Assembly (NCBI RefSeq): GCF_040807025.1 | Contig: NC_090945.1 | Coordinates: 73,419,088 to 73,483,087, forward strand | Source of the DNA: Struthio camelus | Lineage: Eukaryota; Chordata; Aves; Struthioniformes; Struthionidae | Direction: 5' to 3' | Length of the DNA: 64,000 bases | Shown: positions 6,701-64,000 of the stretch, in pieces | Position numbering within the stretch: the stretch's first letter is position 1 | How the letters are laid out: every line of letters begins with the position of its first letter | Made by a program: the position numbers and the translations under genes | The notes under the pieces: generated by a model | Seen by the model: only the letters and a program-made list of their open reading frames with translations | Databases searched by the model: none | What the model was told of the DNA's origin: nothing

Positions 6701-9700
6701 TCTTCAGCTAAAAGCAGTTACTGGACTCTTTCAAACCAGCTGCCATAGGCAGCTGTAATTGAAATGGACAGGCCAAATTTAATCAATATTAAAAAACAGA
6801 ACTAGACCACGCTCACCTGGTAAGAAGTCAAAAACTTAATCCATTAGATTAGAGTGTCTTTCAACCACCTGCCACACAGGTGCCTCCCTCCCATATTAAC
6901 TTTTTAAGTCATCCACCCTCATTTAAGTACCATATCTAAACTTGTACTGCAAGTTACTTGAACCTGAGTAAATCCTCAAGGGAGGTAGCATAACACTACT
7001 GTTTTGTTGTGTCCCTTGTGATAAGTTCACTGCCTTCAGTACTCAGCAGGTGTGCACCTTTAACACCTCTCTGCCACCACAAGCAGAGCAGCCCTTTGCT
7101 CTGCCCAGCAAAGGCACAAAGTTCTCAAAAACCTAAACTTGGTCAAATTCACTCCACCAACTGCAGAAGCCCAAGTGCCCAGCCACAGCCCTAACTTCAT
7201 GGTCCTTAACCACTGTGTTCAAAAGGCCATTGCACCTTTTTCCCCACCGAGAGAAAGGGATGTAGCAAGCCTACCTTCTCCTCCAAGATCCAGCTCAGCT
7301 CCCCCAGAAGCACTCTGTTCTGCTACAGTGTCCTTCACCTCCCCCCCACCCCCTTACCACCACCACTTCTAAACACCTTTACTCACTCTATAATTACCCC
7401 CTTTATTCTACCTGACCTGCAGGCATTTATAGCAGCTGTTTCTATGTAGGTTATTTTTTCCTTTGGGACAGCTGGAGGAGAAGATCAGAGCTCTTATTAA
7501 CTCTTTCAAGGACAATCCAATGAGGGGTATATTGTATATAGTACCCTATATACACGGTGTATATGATATACATTGTATATATACATTGTATGTATGTATA
7601 TAATAATTGTGTATTTAATGTATATGCATTATCACAGTCACTAAAATGCTAGCTGGTTGTAGTTTAAAAGCAGCTCACCAAAGCCTTAACTCCCTTTAAT
7701 GAATGAGAAAAGGATTTGGCCTTTAAGCTATAGGCTGTCCAGCTATACTTAATAAAAAGTTTATGACCTCCTTTTCCCCTTCATTTGTACAGTGGTATGG
7801 CTTGATTTATTTCAGCAGATTTATCTTGGTTTGTTTTAGTATAGGCCAGCAGAGAAGCAAAGCTGGTGGACTCGAGTACATGCTCAAGTAGAAAGATAAC
7901 CTCAGTGCAAGGGCTGGTATCAGGAAAAGGTGATCATGTGATGGAACAGGGGACCAGTGAATATCCTGGGGACTGAAAGAAAAGATGTCACTTCACTGTG
8001 ATTTCCACTCACCTGTGGGAGACTGTTCTTCACTGTGTTCTTCTAAGCTTTTCTCAGATTCCTCTGCTTATTTTTTGTCCATTTTTTGCATCTTCTAAAC
8101 AGTTCGTAAGTTCACCAACAGAGTTATACAACCGTCTAGCGCTACGGTAGCCTGTAGTGCTATAGTACATCAAATAATTATCCAATTTGATGAATAAATA
8201 TATAACAAATGCAATGATCTGGAGGTTGACTGTGAAAATAGCAATTGAATAGGCTTGTTTGGGGTACACATGAATAAATCAATTAAAATGGTTTAACCAA
8301 GATCAGTGAAACCTGTTGACATGACGCCTGAAGTGAATGTATGAGTTTATATTTGGAGGATAGTATAGGACTTTTCAACCATACTAGTGGATTAAAATAC
8401 TGCATTATGGGTGAATAGTCTGTGTCTAGTGTGTCTAGACTTTTGATCTCTTACCAGGCAAGCTCGATCTAATTCTGTTGCTTACTATTGATTACATTTT
8501 TTCTGTTCATTCCAATCAAGCTTTGAGGTCTTTATCGCTACTGCTGTTTGTACATTCAGTAACAGTTCTGTGAAACTTTTCCCTGATATTGCTACAATCA
8601 TATCACAGCTAAAGCTAATTTTTGAAGTGCAAGCTGAGCAATGGGTGCAAGTGATTTTCATTCTAACACTAACTCATAACTGAAGGAGTAGTAGTGTAAG
8701 AGGTAATTGAAAGCTCAGCCCAATATTTTCGTAAACATAAATCTTTAGAGTTATCCCGTACACAAGGGATACTGTGCTGCAACAATGGTTTTGCGTTGCT
8801 TTGGGTAGTTTTTGAATTGCAGTGTTTTTACACTGCAAGCTTGTATTTTTTTGTGTATGTGGCAGTAAAAGTACCCACCTCCTCCAATTATCTCCTATTT
8901 TGTTTCTTGTGTTCTCTTAAAAAGTTTAGTGACTGGCTCCTTGCAAGTCTGTTTCAAGTTTAGCATATTGGATGTTACCTAGCCTTTAATCTTTCCTTTC
9001 TCCTTTTTTTTTTTTTTGTGAACTACCTGTTTATTTCAGCAGGGAAAGGAGAAGTGTGACAAGAGGTTGGTGGTTAACAATTCATTATTAAGAAAACACG
9101 CATGCAGGTTGCACAAAAAGAAATCAATTAACAGCTGAGAATTACATAGTCACTAGTAAGATAAGTATTCTTCCTCAACCTTAACATCAAAAACATGGAA
9201 ACACACAATTTACTGTAATTTATAATTCCTCTACTGATAGCAGTTCAACAGAATTTTGCTACATTTGGCTTGACAGGACATAGAAATGCACAGGAATTTA
9301 GATGAGTAGGCATTAACTAATAAGTATTATCAACAGGCAAGGCAATAAACATTTTATGAATGGTAAACGTGAATGTGAGATTGCAGTATAGTGTTTGATT
9401 TTTTCCTCAGTTAATAAAAAGGGAAAAATTAGATTTGTCAAAATATGAACTACAGATTCTTAGACATTTACTCTTTCATTACTTTCCTTAGGTAACCTCA
9501 TTAACATGAGATGCTTAGGGATGTTTTATGGAGACTGGACTACATTTGTGGGTATCCAGAGCTAGCTGGTTTTCAAGATGAGTCACCCACAGCTTGTCTC
9601 AACTGGCAGACCACGCTCAAGGGACGTCTCCCCCCCCCCCCTCCAATTCTGAAGGTCACTTTCAGAAATTTTGACCTGGAATGTAACCCAAAAAGGTTGA

Positions 9701-12700
9701 AAGATACTCTAATCTAAGGGATTAAGTTTTTGACTTCTTACCAGGCAAGCTTGGTCTAGTTCTGTTTTTTGATGTTGATCAAATTTGGTCTATCCACTTC
9801 AATGAAAGCTTTGAGGTCTTTATCTCCACCACTATGTTTGCACGTTCTGTTACAGTTCTGTGAAACTGTATTTCCATACAATACATTATATTTGTATACA
9901 ATACATTTCCATAGTATTGCTACAATCATATCTAAATTTTTCCTGCAGTAGCCACTGCTAAAGCTTCTATGAAGTTCATGATTTTGTAGTTGCATGCCGC
10001 ATCTTGCTAGAAGTCCCAATGTCCTTCTTTGGCCTTTCCTATCTTATCACCAAACAACTTGGCTCCTTCTGTATGCCCAAAATGATTGATTACCTACATG
10101 TCTAACATCAATCAAGAGTCAGCAGTAAGCTGCAGAAGTTCAGCCAGTTTGTATATTTTCATAGTCACTATGGATGTATGGATGTGTTGATGTGAAATAC
10201 AAGATACTTAATATGGCTAGGCTTAATTCCGAAGTTTGCTTCCTGCCTTTTTGCATAGGAACACCTCTGCATGGATTCATAAAATGTTAATAGTTAGATC
10301 TAGTGCAACCCATAACCTTTTCTGCAAAGGGACATTTCTAAGAAAGGGTGGAGTCCAAAAGAGAAGGTTTAAACTGTGTCCTGAATAAATCAAGGACCAG
10401 GTGGCAAAACTGGAATTTCAGTGAACCTCCATTTTTAATACATGTAAACTAAATGTTTTATTTTATTGATTAGCTTGAACACAGGATGACTTCAGTATCA
10501 CCTGCCTAGAAGCAAGGTATTGTGTTTTGCTGGTAGGGTAGTTTATGCATTTTAGCAATTAACATGCCATTATTCTTCACATAGAGGAGGGGAGGAAGGG
10601 CTTTTCCCAATTCAGCATGAGCTGATAATGCAAGCTATCTTCTATTGGCCAGTGCTGTCAAGAGAGCTTGGAGTATCCGTGGGATGTATGATGTGTGTAT
10701 TGAGTTCCTGCCATTAATCAGCTACAATACAGCTTGGGAGACAAATCTCTTGGCATTTAGCTTACAGTACAACCAACCTTTCTAAATATGTTTTCCTGCT
10801 TCACAATTTCATTATTCGCTTTATGCTCATCTACATGTAGGAGCCTTCTCATCATTTGAGGTGGGGAGGGGGAAAGCACTAATGCGGATCTTTTATTTTG
10901 TAGTGAAATCTTATAAGCTGTCTATTTCCCTGGTTTTTGATAAAATTATATATCTATTGCCTTGTTTGAAATTCAGAGGCACTCAGCATTTAAATCTGAG
11001 CCCATTTTGTTTCTGCACGTACCCTGTGGTATTTCTTTACGCTTGATGAGTTCCTCTGGAGATTATTTGAAAAGCTTTAAGATTGACTGTCAGATACTAC
11101 AGACAGGTTCATTCAGCATTGCAATCAGCTATTCTATTAATAGAATCAATTTGAATACATTGCATTTAGTAAAAGTTCTGAAACCAAGAAGATGGCATAT
11201 CAGGAAGTTTATTAGAACTATTTCATAGGGCTTCTCGTCCAAAAATAAGACAGTGGAAGCAGTAGGATTTCTTAATTGTTCTTTTTTTGTTGTTTTTTCC
11301 TGTAGACGATAAACTTTATCATGTGTATGTAGTGCACTGTCCCCATTCACAGCCTGACTCTATTGCCGTTTCATATTCACAGTACAGATAATTTCAAACT
11401 ATTTTGCTAGCTTGAATCACTCTGGTAGAATTCAATCACATTTGCATTTTTTTCCTAAATCTAGTTCCTTACCATATTCTACAAGGCCATTCTACTACAT
11501 TTCTACAAGCACTGCATTAAACAACGTAACCATCATACTGTATTTGTGGTACAATTCTCTGTATAGAACATGCTAGCATGGTAGGGCCTGAGTTGCAAGG
11601 ACTGCGTTGAGGCTAATGTCCATATTATTAAGTGCTGAGATTAAAGAAGCCAGTGACCAATTGTTCCTTGAACATTGACAAAAAGTTAGTAAATATTTTG
11701 ATGGCCGTCACTGATGGTAATTTATTTTGTGATCATGGACTACACTTGAGACAAGAAAGTACAGGATATGTATCCTACGGAGAACAGAACTTGTAGCAGA
11801 ATTTTGAGGAAATAGTACAGTTAAATATCACTCTCTCTGAGGGGCTTGCAGCACCAGAACGGTCCTCCTGCTTCTTACATGCCACTTTTCATCATACAAG
11901 AAATGTAAAATGCTTAACTCTTTAGTCCTGCTTGTCCATTCAGGCACCCAGTGTTTTCATTTCTGAAGAAAAAGAAGTTTGGGGACTGCTGATACCACCA
12001 ATCCAACTTTCTTGTCTTTTCACACCACTTTAAGCAGAGAGCCATGAAGTACTTTGCAAACAAATATTAAAGCATCTTTAATGTAAAGATCTAAAGATCA
12101 CTATGCCCATCACACTTGTGACATTAACCAGTTATGTAATTGTGTGGGACGAGGACCTAGTCACATTTTTCCTGGGTAACTAGGTACCACACTGGAAGTG
12201 CTGCAGTTAAGTATACAATATAATTTGAAGCTGCAGAATGCTATTCAGTTGGTCTTTAAACAAAATGGCATGTCTACAAGTAACAAAATACCTTCTTTAT
12301 GTTCTGTGCAGAAGATTTCCTAGTAAATAATAATGCAGGGCTGTCAGCATGCCAAAGAAAGATGTGTTACAAGTTACATAGTTGCCATAGTGGGAACTCC
12401 GTTTCTTTCAGAAACGGTGTTGGCAAGCTAAGCCAGGTCCACAGCTACACAGTTTATTAAAATGGTTTAAATACTGCCTTTTGTTGCAACAGGAACTGGT
12501 AACTACAATAATTAAGGAGTGGGGGAGATCCTTTCTTCAGCGCAGGCTATATTGTCGTTGCTCTGATATGTACAGTCAGGTCCGAGAATACTTCGGTGCT
12601 CTCTGGGGCACCTCGCAGCCAATAACTTGCTCCTGAATGGAGTAGTAGGTTTCATTCTACTTTTCAGTGTTTCCCAATATCTAGTCTAGATACTTAATCT

Positions 12701-39569: not shown

Positions 39570-39805
39570 GTCCCCGTGAGCACCATCCCCACAAGCGCTT
39601 CTCCACGAGTGCCGTTCCCCCAGCCCCACAGGAGCGTGAGTGCTGTCTCCACAAGTGCCATCCCCATGGTCCTGAAGAAGCACGAGTGCCATTCCCACAA
39701 GTGCCATCGCCATGGCCCCACAGGAACCCAAGTGGCTGTCCCTGCAAGTGCCATCCCCGTAGCCCTGCAGGAGCACAAGTGGCCATCCCAGCAAGCACCA
39801 TCTGA
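39570..39805. repeat. 46-47 bp GC-rich minisatellite
   Basis: Degenerate tandem units start at 39609, 39655, 39701, 39748 and 39795, giving spacings of 46, 46, 47 and 47. Units open with GTGCCATCCCCATGGCC-like sequence and have an internal AAGTGG/GAGTGC half. The GC-rich repeat keeps several frames open on both strands (up to 174 codons), which mimics coding sequence. Confidence 0.8.
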
Positions 39806-45086: not shown

Positions 45087-45178
45087 TCAGCCAAGACTGG
45101 TAATATTAGAGCGACCACCAGGAGGTGCAACGATGCGGTGTCCAGTACGGCGTGGGTTATTATCATCGATTTGAGCTC
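45087..45178 (-). CDS. CRMP1: CRMP1 exon 14, C-terminus and stop
   Basis: 92 coding nt after the acceptor CTTGTTACAG. Completes a Gly codon, then reads [20 protein letters not shown] and ends GRSNITSLG with a TGA at 45087-45089. This tail is essentially identical to mammalian CRMP1; [10 protein letters not shown] distinguishes it from DPYSL2 (DNIPRRTTQR). Confidence 0.97.
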
Positions 45179-54100: not shown

Positions 54101-57100
54101 AAGATCTCTAGTTAAGAGGAGATGGCAGCAATAGCACAGCAGTGCACCATGGAGGATAAAAGCAACCTGAAGTGCATGGCTCACAGACGAAACAAGGATG
54201 CAAATCCCATGAGGCAAATCCAAACTGCAAACCCCATGAGACATCCTAGATTTTCATACATTCAGCTTTTTAGTGAAAAATCAACATTTTCTGTGAAAAA
54301 TAGAATAACAAGTATGCTCAGTTGCACAGCAAGAATGTTGTGAGGACTCTTTAATGGCTATAAAACATTGGTCTCCTGATGACCAGTGCAATAGAAAAGT
54401 GAAATATTATCTTTAGTATCATCCTTGCATAATTTCTCCACAAATACATTGCAGAGTGATGACAGACAGTTTTCTTCTTTTAGTTTCACGTGTAGATTTA
54501 AAGTATTAAAACTGAAAACAGGCTAAGCTGCTGTTACTTAAGATCTAGGGCTTTAAGTCACAAGGAAAGAAGAGCCATTTTTGGATGCTTGGAGGATGAT
54601 GAAAATTTCCCTGACTCTTCACTTTGTCCTTCCGATGTTAGTGTTAAAAATGTCATTATTTGGATTCCAGTTCTACAAATTCTATTGCTATTTTAACTAA
54701 TCTCTTTTGACCAGATAATGTTATTCTGGGACCCTTTTTTTGAAAGCTTACAGCTGTTTCTGTTAAAGTAAAAAGCCAAACATTCCCATGTGCTGGACAG
54801 GAGCCTGACCGTCACACAATGAGCATCACTCTTTATAGCGCATCACTCTTCATAGTGAAACCTGATTTCAGACTCTGTGTTCACTAGATATGACCAGGGG
54901 CTTAAAGCCGAGTCTGTCCTCACAGACAGTGCTTTACCCATCAGGCTATTTCTTACTCCTGACTGAGTATGTGGTATCCAATTATATATTAACAATTCAG
55001 CTGGAGAAACTGGAGAAGTAGGGAGAAAGACTGTTCGAAGTCCTGTGCTAGAGACTGCTTATTTCACTGTACAGATAGGAATCACTTGAAAAGCAGAGAG
55101 AAAAAGAAATCATCCTGGAATAACAAGCTGCTGGATCTTCAGCATGCTAACTGGGAACATGAAAGGTCCAGGCCTGCTCACCTGACGGGTGAACTAACCA
55201 CAGGGGCATAACTAGCCTTGTTTTTTTACCATTGCTTCTCTGCCATTTTGTTTATGAGACACCAAAGGAGACTACTGCTTTAAAGAAAACTCTGAGTTGA
55301 TCGCTAGGTACTCCAAACCACGTGGCTTTTGCACTCGCCTGACCATCACCCTGTGAAGAAAGGAAGGCCTTACCATGCTAAGAGAGAATTTAAGTGATCT
55401 GGAGTGGTAGGATCAGGGCTCAGAGGTGGCGAGGTCACAAAAGCTGCAGCTTTGGCCCAGTTTTTGCTCCAGTAATGTGTCCCATCTGTCCCCAAGCTGG
55501 CAGTGATCGGCTCTCCAAAAACAAGGGGACCTTGGGGAAAGCAAGGATATACAGGCACAGATTAGAATCCACTCTCTTTTCAACACGTTATTCTGCTTAC
55601 TGCATGCAGCCGTGTATAATTTATGCATTGCTACATGGTCAGCATAGCTCCCAGAAAATTAAACAGCCCTGGCTTTGTTTGCATGATAAAAAATTAATCA
55701 GGAGGCCTTCTGAGCCACGCAGGCTTTTGATCAGGATATTTACAAAGTTCTCTTTCTAATCCAGAAGGAGACAGTTCAGGCCTGCTTTTAATTTGTACCA
55801 TTTTAATCACAGCCATGTTCTCGCTATGGCTCTGCTTGATGCAGAGGAGGGCCCAAGCTGACATATCTTTTTATTGTTGTCAGGTTGGGCATAGCACCAG
55901 CAGACAAGAACACAGAGGTCCCCAACTCCATGCTTCAAGTCTCCAAGGACACAAAAATCAAGAAGAGAATTTTCTCTCTCGCTTTTCCACGTTGCTCGGA
56001 AGTGACCCCCCCCGAGCATCTGTGTCTGGTGATGGTGTGCTCTGTAACGCTGGCCAGCAGAACAGTTCTGGCTCCTCTCCCTGCAGCCTTCAGTCTCAAA
56101 TGAAACACAAAGAAAATAAAATTTGAGAAAAAGATGCAAAAAGTATGAATCAGCTCTTTTTTGGCCTAACCTTTGCCTTCACTATCTTTTTAAACAGGGC
56201 CAAGTAGAAGAAGAGGAAAGGCATTGTGGAAATGGCCACTGGGAAAAATGAACCAGAAAAAGAGAAAGTGAGAGAAGGAAAGTAAAAGGAGTGAGAAAGA
56301 AAAAAATGACAATTTAAGAGAAAAGAAGGGAGGTGTGGAGAGGAATAAAGTACAGTTTGAGGCAGAAAGTGGGGACTGGAAAAGAAAGACTGGTTGCAGA
56401 GGAGCAAAGCTTTTCAACCCAAGAGGGAACGCTGTCCCTCCTACTGGGCCCTGAGCTTGTGCTCTGTCTTGTCCCGCTCTGCGAGGTGCAGACCTTCAAA
56501 GAAAGAGCTGCGTTTACCTGTATGTCTGAGAGGCAGCACCTCCAATGCTGCTTTTACAATACACTAGTTCCCGCCATCAAAGTGGCCTTAAAAAATTGCT
56601 GCCTCCAGGCTCACAATTCCATTCTGGATTATTTTTAACCTGGATCACTCCATGGACCCCAAGCACAGTGTGGACCCACAGAAGCTCCCAGTGGCACATC
56701 TGATGGGATGAGCCTCTAGCAACAAGGCACCAGCAACCTCTAACACTGGCTTCACTGCCCAGAACACTGTAACGTGGAAGTAATCCTTCAGAGGTTAATA
56801 CCCTCAAGTGCCCTCAAAACCATGTGCTAGGTCTTGCCAGAAGAAAATATCTCCCTGCCATGTGCAGAGAGACAGCAGTCTAAGTTACAGGTGAAAGGAA
56901 ACACAGGTGAAAGAAGACTTACAACACAATCTTTGAAAGGCAAGAGGTTGCTTATAGTTTGTGAGGCGAATTTCTCAGCTGAACAAAGTGGAAGGGTCTC
57001 CCTTCAGTTTTCCCAGTTCTAAACATTTAGTGCCTGTGCTGGGATTACTGTTCTTTGGTAATCTCTCCCTGTGTCTTGCGATGTGGGTCAAGTTGTACAG

Positions 57101-60100
57101 ATCAGTCTCCCAGCAACAATTTTTTTTTCTCTGAGCTGCTATTCAACACAAAATCCAAGTTTTCAGGGGAGAAAGAGGTAGTGTCTCACCTTTCTTTCTA
57201 GCCAGCGCAATGATATCAGCTGCGCTCTTACTCATCACTTTGGTGATATACACTGGGCAGTTTATTCGACTAGCAATGGTAATGGCACGGAAAACTGCTT
57301 CTGCTTCGAGCTGGGGAAAAGAGGAAGAAAAAGGTTAGCTACAAAAGCAGAGAGAGAAGGGAAAGGGAACTGGCAGAATGGGTCATATCTCTCAGTGTTT
57401 AGCAACAGTTCTCCAAGGGTTGATTCTGTTTTTTCCAGAGATATGCAGTGCTGGGAAGAGGGAGCTAACCCATTCTCAGACACTTCACGTTGGGGTAAAC
57501 CCACCTGCAGCCTCTCTCCTCCTGCCGAAGGACACAAGGGGGCTTACTCCCCACAGCATGCTCCCTTTAGCGAGCACCAAGCCTTGCTCAGCTGCGCTCG
57601 CTAAAGGGACACGGCTCCCTGCCCAGCAAGAAAGGCTACATCCAAATGGCTGCTGGGCACCTTCTTACTTCCCTCCCTCCTTTCTACTTCAAATCTCTCC
57701 CTCTTCCCTGCAAGCAAAAGGAGAAGGGAGCAAGGTGCCCTAGCACTGAGCCAGTCTCTGAGCTCTCTCTGAGAGCTTATCCTATGCGATCTTTACGTCG
57801 GACAGTGAATGTAAAGTATTCTCAAAGAGCAGCTTCGGCATTATGGACCGAATGTAGCCTGTAATCCATAAAAGCCTTTGGAACATCCCCCAGTAAGTCC
57901 CCTCTGTCAGCAAGGGTAATTGCAATCTCCTTCCGGAGAGCCATCTGGGATGTACAAGCCACGCATTTGTCTGCAGGCAGAGGAGCAGTGTTTCCAGTGG
58001 AGACTCCCCTCCTCAGTCATTAGGCTTATAACTCCTTTCCAGACAAACTCACGATGTCGGCCTTTGAATACCTATGAATCTGTCGTGACTGAAAATACTG
58101 AGGTGACAGTACAGAAAATTCTCTCCAAATGCTGTGCTGGAAAGATTTAGTAACATAACCTCTTCAAAAACACATGGCTTAATTTGTCACAGTTTTGTAA
58201 AATATTTTTTCTTAAAATCAGAGTGCTTGTTTCCAGCACTGTCACTTCAAGTTTTCTTAGGACTTATATTGCAAAATTTACGCCAAAATCCCCAAAGGCA
58301 CTCACAAACAGCTGAGGAAGAAAAGTGGGACCCTTGTTACCTCAGCACTGGGACTTAGACAATCAGACATCAAAGTCAGAAAGATGTACAATTTCTTTCT
58401 GCAAACTGCAAAGGCAGATTTTCCTTAGGCCCTTGCTCTCATTAAAAGGAAAAAACTCAATTCTTTTAGAACAACTTAGGTGGAAGTTAAACAGAACAAT
58501 GAAAAAATACGTAAACAATTCAATAGGACAATGCAATCAATTAAGTTCATTCCTTTTGCCTTGGGGAAGGGTTATAAAAAGAGCTGAAAACCACAACAAT
58601 CTCTTTGAGTTTAGCCTCAGATCCTCAGGGCCTTGTCTCTTTGGTCTTCAAGGAAAGCAATCACTTCCCACTACTGTCCCCGATCGTGCCACTAACTGTC
58701 TGAACTGAGTACATGAAGAGATATTTACATATTGCCACCTTTTTCTTCTTACTAAAAAAAAAAAAAGTACACTTTCCAGATGCCTGGGATGATCCTTGCA
58801 AGAGGCTGGCTTTATTATAAAGAGAATTGCATAAATTGAGCTGCCTTGAAGTATTTTCACATTCTCACATATTTGCATTTCTACAGTCAGCATTTCTACT
58901 ACAAATATATCTGCTGGCATCAGTGTAGATTTATATGTGGGAGTACGTATATGCATGGTGTACGTGAACACATGCATCTTATAGAAGGCTTTTTCAGTCA
59001 AAACTAATTAATGAATCAAGATACAGTATCTCCAAAGCCTAACCCACAGGTTGTGTTACTGACTTCTTGCCTGTTACCCTACGTACAACACTAGAGGTCA
59101 CAATCCTGAGTGAGATCACAACTGAAGTGGGATTAGAAAATGGAAAGAAATCTGAAATTCATTCTGGTACTTGCAGTTGCAAATCAAATTGCAAGGATCA
59201 CAGTCAAAAATGTTTGCACGTCTGTGCTGTAAAACTAAAACACTCCGCAGATAATGACATTCTCAGGGCACAGCAATGTCTTTCAAAGTGGCAGTCACAC
59301 TAGGGATCCAAGATGATTGCAAAGTGCTAGAAAAACTTGACCAGGGAAATGGTGACATTTCACAACCCCGTGGGCCTACTCCTCCGGGCAAGGTGGTGAG
59401 AAGGAGTTTTTTCTCCTGGGCACATGGGCAGCCACTCATCTCCCACCCCAAAGCAACGTGCTGCTACCAGCAGCAAGGGCAAACCAGCTGAAGGCATCTC
59501 AGACTTTTTAAAACTCTGTATAATACTGGAAGAGGCCACAGGACACACAGATTGCCACCTTCCCTCGCATGCCTGTCATCTGCACATAGCAGAAGCCAAA
59601 TTCTGATATTACGTACTCGACAGAAAATATTTCCATGAACTACAAAATGAGTGCAGTCTCTTACCTCCTCGGGTCTGCTCAGGGCATGTCCCTCAGGCCC
59701 TGTGATTCCCATTTCCAGGATACGTTTTTGTTCCTGAAACATAACAGACAAATGCGGACAACTGCTACAACATGAGAGGCTTCTATCCAACGTCCTCTGG
59801 TGGATTAACAGCTGTATTTTCTGACTGCTCCATGTTTTTGTGTGCAAAAGCAGCTGAGTAAGCCTGCTGCTGGGGCAGGAGGACTGAAAACCTAGGCTCT
59901 AAATATACTGTTCCCATGCTCCCGTGGCTTCTGTGCCGTACAGCCAGCCCAGATTTCAGAGGAGGCTTTGTGACTGCAGTTTGATAGAGCATATTTGTGC
60001 CTCAGGCCATTGTGATTGAACCATCTGATATCTCCTCTGACCACCAGAAAGTCTTATTTGACACCAAGATACCAGGCTAGGGAACAGGTATCAATATTTT

Positions 60101-63100
60101 AAATTGTAGTTATGGATGTTTCCATACTGCAATTCTTTCTTTACACACAAAAGTTCTCCGTCTTCAAACTATGAAGCATTGCTACCTTCTTTAAACTTTC
60201 AGCATTGTTTACTTTTATCAGATGGAGCCTCTCCTTTGTCACCCAATTTTCTGTACCACTTTTCTCCTACAGACTGAATCACTAAAATTATGTTTTCTTG
60301 AAAGTAAAAAAATCCCTTCCTCTGTCCTCTGGTTACTGTGGCACTGTGTCCACCTCAACAGGACCTACTGAGAGCCAATGGAGGGTTGTCAGACAAAATT
60401 TTTGCTATCAAGCTTCGCACCAGTGAGAGCAATTCTTAAAAACAGACAAGGGGTTTTAATTATCTTTTAATTTAAGGTCAAGCAGCAGCACTGGAATAAA
60501 TTTCCTTGTCCATAAAAAGTGATAACTATTTCTGATCTGAGGTTAGACACAGGTCCACCAACAGAGCAGAGGTGCAAACACTGAGCTATCGATGTCCCTC
60601 AACTCCCAGCCTTCCATGCCCACAGGTCTCTAATGAATAGAGTAAAACAAATGCAATAACTCTGTGATACAGACAAATGTCCCCTAGAGACTAGGATGAA
60701 GTTACCTAACATACTTTACTGCGTAACCTAATAAATATTTGATCCCAGGTCCCTGAGGGTGAAAAGCTAACTCATTACTTATATACTTCAACAAAACCTG
60801 GGCAACTTAATATTCACATAGACTTTTGCCTTCACTGCAATCAATCAAGGCTGTAGAGGATCCTATTAATCTGTCCGTGTAATTAAGATTATTTTGGGTT
60901 AGAAAATCACAGTATTTCATGGGTATTATTAAAAATAGATGTTCTAAAACCATAACGCATCAGCTCTGAACAGTGAAATTTAAAGACGTCAAATAATTAA
61001 AATACAATAATAAATAAGCAATTAAAACTAAGTAATACAAAAAATATCAAAATGGTAAAGAATGGCAAAACTTAAAACATGGTAGATTTGCGTCCTGAAG
61101 GATGTCGTAAAATCAGATTATATGATAAAATTATTAACTGTAAGAGGATTTGATAGTGATAGGTAAACGAGAAAATTTGTCTGATAAGATCAAATTTAGG
61201 TTTTTCACACTGGATAGTCCCTCAAAACATCCCTATAGGCAGCTTTCCTTTCACCATCCAAACAATCCTTCTAAATATCGGCATAAGGAAGAAACTGATT
61301 TTATGAGACATGGAAATGTTAGAGAATATGCTGTTGTATATATAATTCACATTTCTTTACAACTTCCTCCTTCTTTTCTTAATCACTTTGCTTTCCTTTA
61401 TGCTCATGTTCTATGGCTGTATATTAAAACTGATTAAAGAAAAACATAGTTGGAACAGATTTCTATCGAAAATGCAATTGCCCAAGTGCTTGTTGATTTT
61501 AATGGGGGACCCATCAAAACATCACGGGTGCCATGTGATTTCTTTCATTTTGCCATTTCTACAGTAACATTGACTTACGTTCATTTTTACCTCTTTTGGT
61601 TCTTTTGGATATTTTATGTTGTGCTAAAACTGTAAATGATATATTTTGGTAGTTTCAAATCAGGCTAATCTTGCTGGGAAATTCCAGCTTTTTTTCTCTT
61701 GAATCCAAATGATAGTTTTCACCTGGTTCCAAAGTGGGATGAATACAGCTGCACCATATGTGCCTGTTGATTCCTCACTAGTACCTTTTGCGTCCAGTGA
61801 TTATTTTGGCCAAACATGACAGAGGGAAAGAAGGTTCTCAAAGGTGTTAAGTTCCTACCAGATTCTGTTCCTTAGAGAACAGAACCCATCTAAGGGGAAA
61901 AAAATAATAGTTTAAAAAAAAAAAAACACTTATGGGCAAGAGCCTGTATGCACTGCCATATGAAACATTCACTTGAAATTCTGGCTCAGCCACGAGACAA
62001 TGTGGCTTCTCTAGTCCAGAGCTGACAGACAACACGTTTTTATCTACCGTAATTTCCTTGTCAGCTCTGCAGCCTAGTCCTGAGCAGATAAGCCAGCAGA
62101 TGAAGAGCTCAGCAGATAAAGCAGTCCGCTCGCTCAGAGCCTCACAGACTTCCGAGGGGCTCTACCCTGCTGCCAGCACACGTACGAGGGATCAGAGGAG
62201 TAAGACATTTCTGCAACAGTCTTAAAATACTCAGCTGCTACAGATTTATACAATCATAACAATATCCCCCCCATAACCTGCCCTTTCTATTTTATAGGGG
62301 AATGCTGGCCTCTGAAAGACCAGTGGGAGGTCCGCTATTGACTATAGTCCTCGGGATATCTCTTTCGATCTGCTGTTGCACAGGTCACAGCTAAAACATG
62401 CTTCAGTGTGAGGACTGTACCTATCAGCTCAGCTCACCCGCAAAGTGTACACTGAGGAACTGGCATACACCATATGTCCCTCAGGCCCTGTGATTCCCAT
62501 TTCCAGGATACGTTTTTGTTCCTGAAACATAACAGACAAATGCCGACAACTGCTACAACATGAGAGGCTTCTATCCAACATCCTCTGGCGGATTAACAGC
62601 TGTATTAACATAACCAGTTTGAGTCCAACTTCCTGCTTCTGAGAATTCTCTTCTAAGAGCAAGACTTATACTTTAATGCACATTTCTAACATGTTTTAGA
62701 AGATCATGGTGGTTTATACTCAAATTTCAGAAACTTCGAAGTGTCTTCTAAAAAATAAATAGGTCTGAGAGCTCTGCCACCCGTTCTAAACTCACTAGGC
62801 CTCCTATGCTGGTAATTGCAGCAGCAACGTTAGCATAAAGCTTCCCAGCATCACATTGCGTCCCGCAGATCTGCAAGCAAGGCTTTACTATGTTTGTTCT
62901 GCTTCACCTGCCTCTGTTGGATTTAGAAGACGTCTCCTTGCTTCCTTTTGCCCCCCTTACCCAGAACGCATCCGCTGCCAAAGCAGGAGCTGCTTGGATC
63001 ACTACTCCATCTCGGGGGTGCTATGCCAAAGCACCCAGGAGGAACTCCATCCTGCCATCCCACAGTTTGTACCAGTGGTGTATAAGACATCAGAATCAAC

Positions 63101-63288
63101 AAAGATGAGTTACTAGCTAGTTCCTTTTTTCCCACCTATACCCTAATTGGAGGGATTTACTCATGTGACTCTTCTCACAAAGTGAAAGAAAACCACAGTT
63201 CACTCACCTGAGCTATCAAGTCTCCATTTTCAGCATGCACCAGGATAACAGCCCCAAGACTTTTTAGAAAGGTAAAGGCTTCATAAAG
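45087..63288 (-). CDS. CRMP1: CRMP1 collapsin response mediator protein 1, C-terminal part (9 exons)
   Basis: Joined reverse-strand exons in transcript order: 63208-63288, 59665-59733, 57190-57310, 55374-55530, 53065-53206, 51240-51410, 49639-49818, 46897-47062, 45087-45178. They encode 392 residues against 572 in human, so about 180 N-terminal residues lie beyond the right edge. Counting back from the last exon of the family's 14-exon plan gives exons 6-14. CRMPs are cytosolic tetrameric phosphoproteins with a dihydropyrimidinase fold that act in semaphorin-3A signalling and growth-cone cytoskeleton control. Catalytic metal ligands are missing, as expected: TKVMSKSA replaces the enzyme's HVMSKSA, and TGSGHC replaces TGTDNC. 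The CRMP1-type tail and the EVC neighbour separate it from DPYSL2-5. Confidence 0.96.
45179..46896 (-). other. CRMP1 intron 13
   Basis: 1.7 kb. A perfect 10-bp hairpin (ACTGACTCCC, loop ATAG) lies at 46206-46229. Around 45420-45510 is sequence that may be an old repeat remnant. No exon. Confidence 0.55.
46897..47062 (-). CDS. CRMP1: CRMP1 exon 13, phosphorylated tail
   Basis: 166 nt, phase 0 to 1, acceptor GACGTAG and donor CGG|GTAAGT. Reads [20 protein letters not shown], then [18 protein letters not shown], then [15 protein letters not shown]. In mammals this tail carries the GSK3/CDK5/Rho-kinase sites (Thr509, Thr514, Ser522). The equivalent ATPK, ATPAP and SSPAK motifs are all kept. The second residue is Gly where human has Phe (VFGLQG). 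Confidence 0.96.
47063..49638 (-). other. CRMP1 intron 12
   Basis: 2.6 kb. A possible old palindromic repeat remnant lies at about 48385-48445. The open frames at 47467-47728 and 48650-48998 are not recognised. No exon. Confidence 0.55.
48385..48445. repeat. Possible ancient palindromic repeat remnant
   Basis: AAATCAA and TTGATTT form inverted arms around a short spacer, flanked by GATCCAGC-like and GGCCATCAGG-like ends. This resembles the old short palindromic repeats common in bird and reptile genomes. Heavily diverged, so the assignment is weak. Confidence 0.3.
49639..49818 (-). CDS. CRMP1: CRMP1 exon 12
   Basis: 180 nt, phase 0 to 0, acceptor GATCCTCAG and donor AAG|GTAGTG. Reads [20 protein letters not shown], then [19 protein letters not shown], then [19 protein letters not shown]. 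It forms the end of the dihydropyrimidinase-like fold and matches human CRMP1 at nearly every position. Confidence 0.97.
49819..51239 (-). other. CRMP1 intron 11
   Basis: 1.4 kb with no recognised feature. Overlapping short open frames at 50056-50527 on both strands show no homology that I recognise. Confidence 0.55.
51240..51410 (-). CDS. CRMP1: CRMP1 exon 11
   Basis: 171 nt, phase 0 to 0, acceptor TTTTTTTTAG and donor TCG|GTAAGA. Reads [20 protein letters not shown], then [20 protein letters not shown], then [16 protein letters not shown]. The [16 protein letters not shown] block is a hallmark of the dihydropyrimidinase/CRMP superfamily. Confidence 0.98.
51411..53064 (-). other. CRMP1 intron 10
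   Basis: 1.65 kb. It contains the GT-rich microsatellite at 52438-52500 and no exon. Confidence 0.6.
52438..52500. repeat. GT/GTGAGT microsatellite
   Basis: About 60 bases of alternating GT with interspersed GTGA and GTGC units, including an uninterrupted GT run of about 8 units. CA-repeat on the CRMP1 sense strand. Confidence 0.9.
53065..53206 (-). CDS. CRMP1: CRMP1 exon 10
   Basis: 142 nt; its first base completes the Cys codon split from exon 9 (LLAC), and it ends in phase 0 at GTA|GTAAGT. Reads [20 protein letters not shown], then [20 protein letters not shown], then VVWDKAV. TGSGHC sits where the active enzymes carry the catalytic Asp, consistent with a non-enzymatic CRMP. Confidence 0.97.
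53207..55373 (-). other. CRMP1 intron 9
   Basis: 2.2 kb. Minor tandem duplications near 54190-54245 and 54822-54860. Nothing else seen. Confidence 0.55.
55374..55530 (-). CDS. CRMP1: CRMP1 exon 9
   Basis: 157 nt, acceptor TTTCCCCAAG and donor CATG|GTAAGG. Completes a Gly codon and reads [40 protein letters not shown] and [11 protein letters not shown]. The [15 protein letters not shown] block is diagnostic of the superfamily. Small differences from human (ITAS for IAAS, HLN for YLT) are conservative. Confidence 0.97.
55531..57189 (-). other. CRMP1 intron 8
   Basis: 1.7 kb. Contains a purine-rich tract at about 56195-56345 (pyrimidine on the sense strand), which produces several proline/serine/phenylalanine-rich reverse open frames of no significance. 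Confidence 0.55.
57190..57310 (-). CDS. CRMP1: CRMP1 exon 8
   Basis: 121 nt, phase 0 to 1, acceptor CTTTTCCCCAG and donor AAAG|GTGAGA. Reads [20 protein letters not shown], then [20 protein letters not shown]. Lys in ITKVMSK replaces the metal-binding His of active dihydropyrimidinases, a known CRMP feature. Confidence 0.97.
57311..59664 (-). other. CRMP1 intron 7
   Basis: 2.4 kb, with no recognised element. Pyrimidine- and CT-rich sequence lies near 57640-57720. No exon. Confidence 0.55.
59665..59733 (-). CDS. CRMP1: CRMP1 exon 7
   Basis: 69 nt, phase 0 to 0, acceptor TTATGTTTCAG and donor GAG|GTAAGA. Reads [20 protein letters not shown] then PEE, identical to human CRMP1. Its first 48 nt plus 85 nt of upstream intron are duplicated at 62474-62606. 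This copy is the ancestral exon because it keeps the conserved ALSRPEE end and donor. Confidence 0.97.
59686..59818 (-). repeat. Direct repeat, source copy (CRMP1 exon 7 and its acceptor)
   Basis: 133 bases matching 62474-62606 at a constant offset of 2788 with no indels and 3 mismatches, all in the intronic part. Same orientation as the second copy. Confidence 0.95.
62438..62521 (-). other. Candidate alternative exon 7' of CRMP1
   Basis: From the duplicated acceptor, the reading runs [16 protein letters not shown] and continues [12 protein letters not shown] to a donor-like CGG|GTGAGC. That is 84 nt, 28 codons, phase 0 to 0, with no stop. It could replace exon 7 or be added before it without breaking the frame. 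No transcript evidence is available here. The new 12 residues break the conserved ALSRPEE segment, so it may also be a non-functional duplicate. Confidence 0.4.
62474..62606 (-). repeat. Direct repeat, second copy of CRMP1 exon 7 region
   Basis: 130 of 133 bases are identical to 59686-59818. It carries the complete acceptor (TTATGTTTCAG) and the first 48 nt of exon 7 without change. It lacks the last 21 nt of the exon (ALSRPEE) and the original donor. Flanking sequences are unrelated. Confidence 0.95.
63208..63288 (-). CDS. CRMP1: CRMP1 exon 6
   Basis: 81 nt, phase 0 to 0, acceptor CTACCTGCAG and donor CAG|GTGAGT. Reads [20 protein letters not shown] then NGDLIAQ, with one substitution from human (KSLG for KGLG). 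This is the most 5' CRMP1 exon in the window. Confidence 0.96.
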
Positions 63289-64000
63289 CTGCAGGTAGTA
63301 CAAAGAAGGAAACACTGCTGAATAAGGAAAACACATTACTTAACACTCAGACCTCTTTGTTCATCTGTTTTTCTCCTTTTATACTGGTAATTAGCTCAGT
63401 GAATAGGAAATTACCTCCCTCTTCCACTCTTCACCTCTACAAAGAGCCAGGGGCTTCACTAGCAGGCATCCACCTTACATATCACTGAACTTATATACCC
63501 TTATATGCCGGCCAGACATAGGATGAGATTGTGCCCTTGCACACCAAGACAGTGTCAGAAGTCCCAAGTGGCATTGCGTCTCCCTTAGATTTAGTGCCTC
63601 CCTGAGTTCCTCTTATTGTATGGCTAGCTCTTAATGCCCTCCCACACAGGCCTTAGGTTTACTGAGTACTCGCCTGTCTGTAGTTTCAGCAAATGTAGTG
63701 GATGCATTATAAAGATATCTTGCCTGAATAAACAAAAAATAGATCAACTGAAATGCACCCATAACGAATGGGAATAATCAATAGACTGTAGTCATTTTTA
63801 GTACAGCTAAAACATCTTTTTTTGAAGTGCACCATTTTGTTAAAGCAGAGTGTCAAGCTTTTGTCAACACTTTGCTTCTACAACTAAAGTTTTAACATTT
63901 TCCCTAGAGCATCCTGCTATTTGCTACTTTTTAACATTAAAAACCCGTTCATACAAAAGGCAAATGGTTGATCCTTTTCGTTCTAATGAAAATTTCTGAA
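63289..64000 (-). other. CRMP1 intron 5 (partial)
   Basis: The sequence expected for the preceding exon (ending MSDSQ) is not found up to the window edge. No other feature seen. Confidence 0.6.

Follow-up and report, generated by a model that had tools for sequence, protein, structure and literature searches.

A young partial copy of CRMP1 exon 7 in intron 6 of the ostrich gene, with a chance in-frame donor

A truncated copy of exon 7 of the neuronal gene CRMP1 lies within intron 6 of the ostrich gene, where sequence outside the copy supplies a donor-like site and the frame between the two splice sites is open. The locus raises the question of whether such a copy is a new alternative exon or an intronic by-product of a local duplication. 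Copies of exons within their own gene are common: PMC9013439 puts about 2% of human exonic nucleotides, UTR exons included, in this class at an identity of at least 80%; within UTR exons the share is almost 15%. Tandem duplication of exons is common as well, whereas mutually exclusive use of the duplicates is not (PMC9741552). Literature searches on CRMP1 alternative splicing with exon duplication, and on DPYSL exon duplication, returned nothing, and one on CRMP1 in ostrich gave a single paper, which to judge from its title concerns PDE6 genes; the accessible portions of the CRMP1 splice-variant literature report the LCRMP-1 form and make no mention of an exon corresponding to the one considered here (hereafter exon 7b).

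The duplicated block and its place in CRMP1

The gene is assigned to CRMP1 (DPYSL1), on the minus strand, from its encoded peptides. The peptide of exon 7 is identical to human CRMP1 chains 1kcx (E 2.6e-9) and 4b3z (E 3e-9) and is matched less well by DPYSL2–5 chains; exons 6 and 8–14 match human CRMP1 in order at 88–96%, CRMP1 being the only family member used in this comparison. The exon map was built with a human CRMP1 sequence, and its further exons run down to position 45087 of the window (the whole stretch of 64,000 nt that was analysed; Table 1).

Table 1. Features of the CRMP1 exon 6 to exon 8 region, in window coordinates.
Feature	Position	Strand	Description	Evidence
CRMP1 exon 6	63288-63208	-		exon map
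Copy	62474..62606	-	130/133 identical to source block, within CRMP1 intron 6	repeat search, alignment, genome search
Hypothetical exon 7b	62521-62438	-	84 nt, phase 0/0, open, peptide of 28 residues	alignment, exon map
Non-copied intron sequence	62438..62473	-	36 nt, would encode 12 residues	alignment
Donor-like site	62437-62432	-	GTGAGC (CGG/GTGAGC), in frame	alignment
Source block	59686..59818	-	last 85 nt of CRMP1 intron 6 with acceptor, first 48 nt of exon 7	repeat search, alignment
CRMP1 exon 7	59733-59665	-	69 nt, phase 0/0, donor GAG/GTAAGA, peptide of 23 residues	PDB match, exon map
CRMP1 exon 8	57310-57190	-		exon map

Self-comparison and alignment identify a direct repeat of 133 nt whose copies lie 2788 nt apart and agree at 98% of positions, a match of a quality that is not due to chance. 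Read on the minus strand, the block runs from intron through the AG acceptor into the start of exon 7. The three mismatches fall at −68, −59, and −23 from the exon start, leaving three differences in the intronic part and none in the exonic part; two of them, one per copy, are consistent with CpG transitions, and C/G is the remaining one. An earlier note on this DNA had described the recurring block, its spacing, and its three non-exonic mismatches, all of which the repeat search and alignment confirm, and the junctions that it had predicted for the use of the copy (63208/62521, 62438/59733, and 62438/57310) agree throughout with the exon map. When the source genome (1.45 Gb) was searched with the 169-nt region that holds the copy and the adjoining sequence, at least two matches were obtained, the region itself and exon 7; the 324 nt at 62150-62473, which end where the copy starts on the plus strand, were matched by themselves alone among the genome matches, and these genome copy counts may be lower bounds. 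A larger, gapped duplication was not seen in a self-comparison of 57000-64000, which yielded, besides the 133-nt pair, one 26-nt pair of 81% that is out of register.

An assembly error, in which a single locus has been written twice, is very improbable. The observation rests on one assembly, but the copies differ at three sites, their flanks are unrelated on both sides, and 2.8 kb of a single 88-Mb contig separates them. Errors of haplotype handling or stitching tend to repeat long segments, flanks included.

A blastn comparison of each of 26 stretches with itself (the window plus 25 others of 10 kb; 314 kb in total, a sample too small for a rate) showed no other dispersed duplicate of at least 95%. 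Other pairs of at least 60 nt and at least 80% were confined to one inverted pair of 89% in the window and one tandem pair of 86% in stretch L011. Dispersed duplications of the CRMP1 kind are not everyday in the sampled DNA, a point that counts against regarding the copy as the product of an everyday repair-type event. The inverted pair of the window (6751-6866 / 9695-9810) and a set of direct pieces of 76–88% (8441-8604 / 9728-9932) are probably interspersed repeat copies, and 39590-39802 holds a minisatellite of about four copies that match at 69–78%, the repeat unit being about 46 nt long. Mitochondrial ND2 from the source assembly is 99% identical to that of Struthio camelus and at most 86% identical to any of the other 119 proteins among the best 120 of at least 7998 scored, and the source is accordingly taken to be an ostrich. 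Elsewhere in this genome, ND2-domain matches occur on several small contigs (C84, C86, C96, C222, and C238) and are repeated about 18.3 kb apart in C84, C86, C96, and C238; these four contigs resemble mitochondrial genomes joined head to tail that the assembly has retained, and C41:30828022, where ND2 matches with a lower score, may represent a nuclear insertion.

Origin and age of the copy

The block spans an intron–exon border, so its template was DNA or RNA before splicing rather than mRNA. Since the complete conserved exon is found only at the exon 7 locus, that locus is regarded as the source. The flanks of source and copy share no base, insert and target overlap by 1 nt at either end, and a target-site duplication is lacking. 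A retrocopy or transposon was considered and rejected on the intron content, the lack of a target-site duplication, the finding of two copies, and a 3′ flank that matches itself only. Templated insertions at repaired double-strand breaks are short copies of nearby sequence with near-blunt junctions and no target-site duplication. The CRMP1 copy resembles them in each of these respects, and its 1-nt overlap at either junction falls within the microhomology of no or few nucleotides that characterizes end joining; judged from the junctions, templated insertion during end-joining repair is the most likely route.

The three changes were dated over 170 intronic sites and 48 sites of the copied exon that were assumed to change freely. 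A bird rate of 1.9e-9 per site per year corresponds to an age of 7.2 My (1.5–21). The slower rate of 0.91e-9 per site per year, from the PRM data set (PMC12368558), gives 15 My (3.1–44), which is likely too high, since PRM sites probably evolve more slowly than introns. Ostriches form the earliest branch of the living palaeognaths (PMC12368558), and a copy of about 7–15 My should accordingly be confined to them.

The perfect identity of the exonic part had been read in the earlier note as a hint of constraint or recent origin. If three differences are placed at random among 133 sites, all of them land in the 85 intronic sites with P = 0.26, and the placement of the mismatches does not point to constraint; that the 48 exonic nucleotides are identical is thus evidence of the youth of the copy and of nothing more. 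Of the two readings, recent origin fits the small number of differences, and constraint is not supported.

Splice sites and reading frame of hypothetical exon 7b

Exon 7b would consist of the 48 copied nucleotides followed by 36 nt of unrelated sequence. The proposal that the truncated copy, which lacks the exon 7 donor, is completed by an in-frame CGG/GTGAGC into an open 84-nt exon of phase 0/0 is borne out by the alignment; read past this donor, the frame reaches a stop after two further codons. The copied acceptor is identical to that of exon 7 over its last 22 nt, a branch-point-like CTCAT at −40 is retained, and the acceptor lies 686 nt from exon 6, compared with 3474 nt for that of exon 7. 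On a donor matrix of human type, which is neither MaxEntScan nor derived from birds, the new donor scores 4.41, higher than six of the eleven genuine CRMP1 donors scored (exons 3–13, with exons 1 and 2 left out; range 0.8–8.2).

How often such a donor arises was estimated by setting the 48-nt fragment before every seventh position of 114 kb of the locus, exons and the true site included. Among the 16229 junctions sampled, 220 (1.4%) had an in-frame, stop-free donor scoring at least 4.41; the proportion was 3.1% for a score of at least 3 and 8.4% for at least 0.8, the score of the weakest genuine donor. An open in-frame donor is thus mildly unlikely, but the repeat was picked from 64 kb partly for that donor, post hoc.

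Leakage of the candidate exon into some mRNA is plausible because its acceptor is identical over 22 nt and its donor outscores most of the genuine donors compared. A stronger version holds that the copy is spliced appreciably and amounts to noise or to a mild burden, in that its acceptor would compete with that of exon 7 and send part of the output into non-functional CRMP1 mRNA, possibly including transcripts that end within the intron. The retained branch-point-like site, the proximity to exon 6, the identity of the acceptor, and the strength of the donor agree with this account, but high inclusion would change a conserved protein and should have been purged, and for intron-ending transcripts no AATAAA is present between the copy and exon 7, where the weaker variants ATTAAA, AGTAAA, and TATAAA occur. 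We consider appreciable splicing unlikely. The copy is probably a short, dispersed, repair-type duplication that is now a neutral intronic pseudo-exon, perhaps leaking into some transcripts.

Protein consequences and comparison with known exon duplications

Use of exon 7b in place of exon 7 would leave 16 of the 23 residues of exon 7 intact and replace ALSRPEE by 12 non-homologous residues; with tandem inclusion, 28 residues would be added there. Of the seven residues lost in the swap, six (LSRPEE) do not vary across an alignment of 23 CRMP1 proteins, from sharks to birds, drawn from the best 120 of 1849 homologue matches. Within the same best 120, SRPEE follows the GPEGH motif in 117 of its 120 occurrences, which are spread over 119 proteins; in the remaining three the sequence is ELCRPEE, found two times in the frog protein P0001, or PLSHPEE, found once, and protein P0044 has no match to GPEGH. 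Because of this conservation, from which the importance of the LSRPEE residues is judged, the swapped isoform would probably be damaged. The idea that the swap is harmless on the ground that it preserves the frame is at odds with the replacement of invariant residues by non-homologous ones. In P0001 (Ranitomeya imitator), the top-scoring homologue and predicted to be dihydropyrimidinase-like, the GPEGH stretch is present twice, possibly through a tandem duplication or a gene-model artefact.

Profile scores do not show a wrecked domain in the swapped isoform. The TIGR02033 score falls from 634.5 to 613.0 bits (a loss of 21.5) and that of Amidohydro_1 (Pfam) from 97.9 to 95.1 bits (a loss of 2.8), and Amidohydro_3 is practically unchanged (38.9 and 39.0). 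An AlphaFold model of turtle CRMP1 (P0014), made with 23 sequences, had a mean pLDDT of 40.6 and was set aside. Words of the new peptide (VYASS, MVYA, and SVYTLR) are absent from the best 120 of 1849 homologues, among which clustering at 90% could hide an isoform.

These results bear on the proposal that exon 7b is a functional alternative exon of the ostrich lineage, used either mutually exclusively or in tandem with exon 7 and giving CRMP1 an altered loop or a 28-residue insertion. The copy would then be a young exon at birth, a truncated duplicate that, completed by a chance donor, already provides a second neuronal isoform. The open 84-nt frame between phase-compatible exons, the identical acceptor, and the adequate donor are what such an exon would need. 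The obvious parallel is with tandem duplicated exon substitution events (Kondrashov and Koonin, 2001; Letunic, 2002; via PMC9741552), in which a phase-compatible duplicate likewise lies beside the original. The known pairs retain the residues that matter most and change mostly conservatively, and orthologues in bony fish exist for more than 90% of the human pairs, although their two versions often agree at no more than 37–53% of positions, below the proportion of exon 7 residues kept here (PMC9741552). In CRMP1, by contrast, the homology does not extend along the full exon: 48 of 69 nt were copied, the donor is non-homologous, the remaining peptide is unrelated, LSRPEE is lost, and the copy is recent. 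The phase, the open frame, and the AG acceptor and GTGAGC donor do agree with a substitution event. With invariant residues replaced, no sign of constraint, and the peptide absent from the homologues compared, we think it very improbable that exon 7b is already a functional isoform.

Two other classes are comparable. Unannotated intronic exon copies likewise resemble an exon of their own gene; those of PMC9013439 come from human, fly, and worm, with human RNA-seq as support for expression, whereas the CRMP1 copy is known from DNA. Pseudo-exons or cryptic exons are intronic stretches between acceptor-like and donor-like sites (PMC8819188), as is exon 7b, with the difference that its acceptor derives from duplication.

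The neutral pseudo-exon is the reading that we prefer, and its history may be set out as follows. In the ostrich lineage, some 7–15 million years ago (95% range 1.5–44 under the two assumed rates), 133 bp across the 3′ splice site of exon 7 would have been copied 2.8 kb upstream into intron 6, by templated insertion in the end-joining repair of a break. The copy would have kept the acceptor, the CTCAT branch-point-like site, and 48 exonic bases and lost the donor; a chance in-frame donor 36 nt downstream could then define a cryptic exon that enters a minority of transcripts and has no selected function. Against this reading stand the identical copied acceptor, the strength of the new donor, the low frequency of such donors among the sampled junctions, the small loss in the Amidohydro_1 score, and the number of exon 7 residues kept.

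The partial duplication of exon 7 is genuine and young, and events of this sort are ordinary; its interest lies in the donor supplied by chance. A functional alternative exon is very improbable and unsupported. It offers an example of how exon copies originate, in which a short repair-type duplication brings a complete acceptor and the donor must come by chance. If transcripts use the copy, it would show, in minimal form and with a date attached, how partial duplication can give rise to an exon in a neuronal protein that is otherwise highly conserved.
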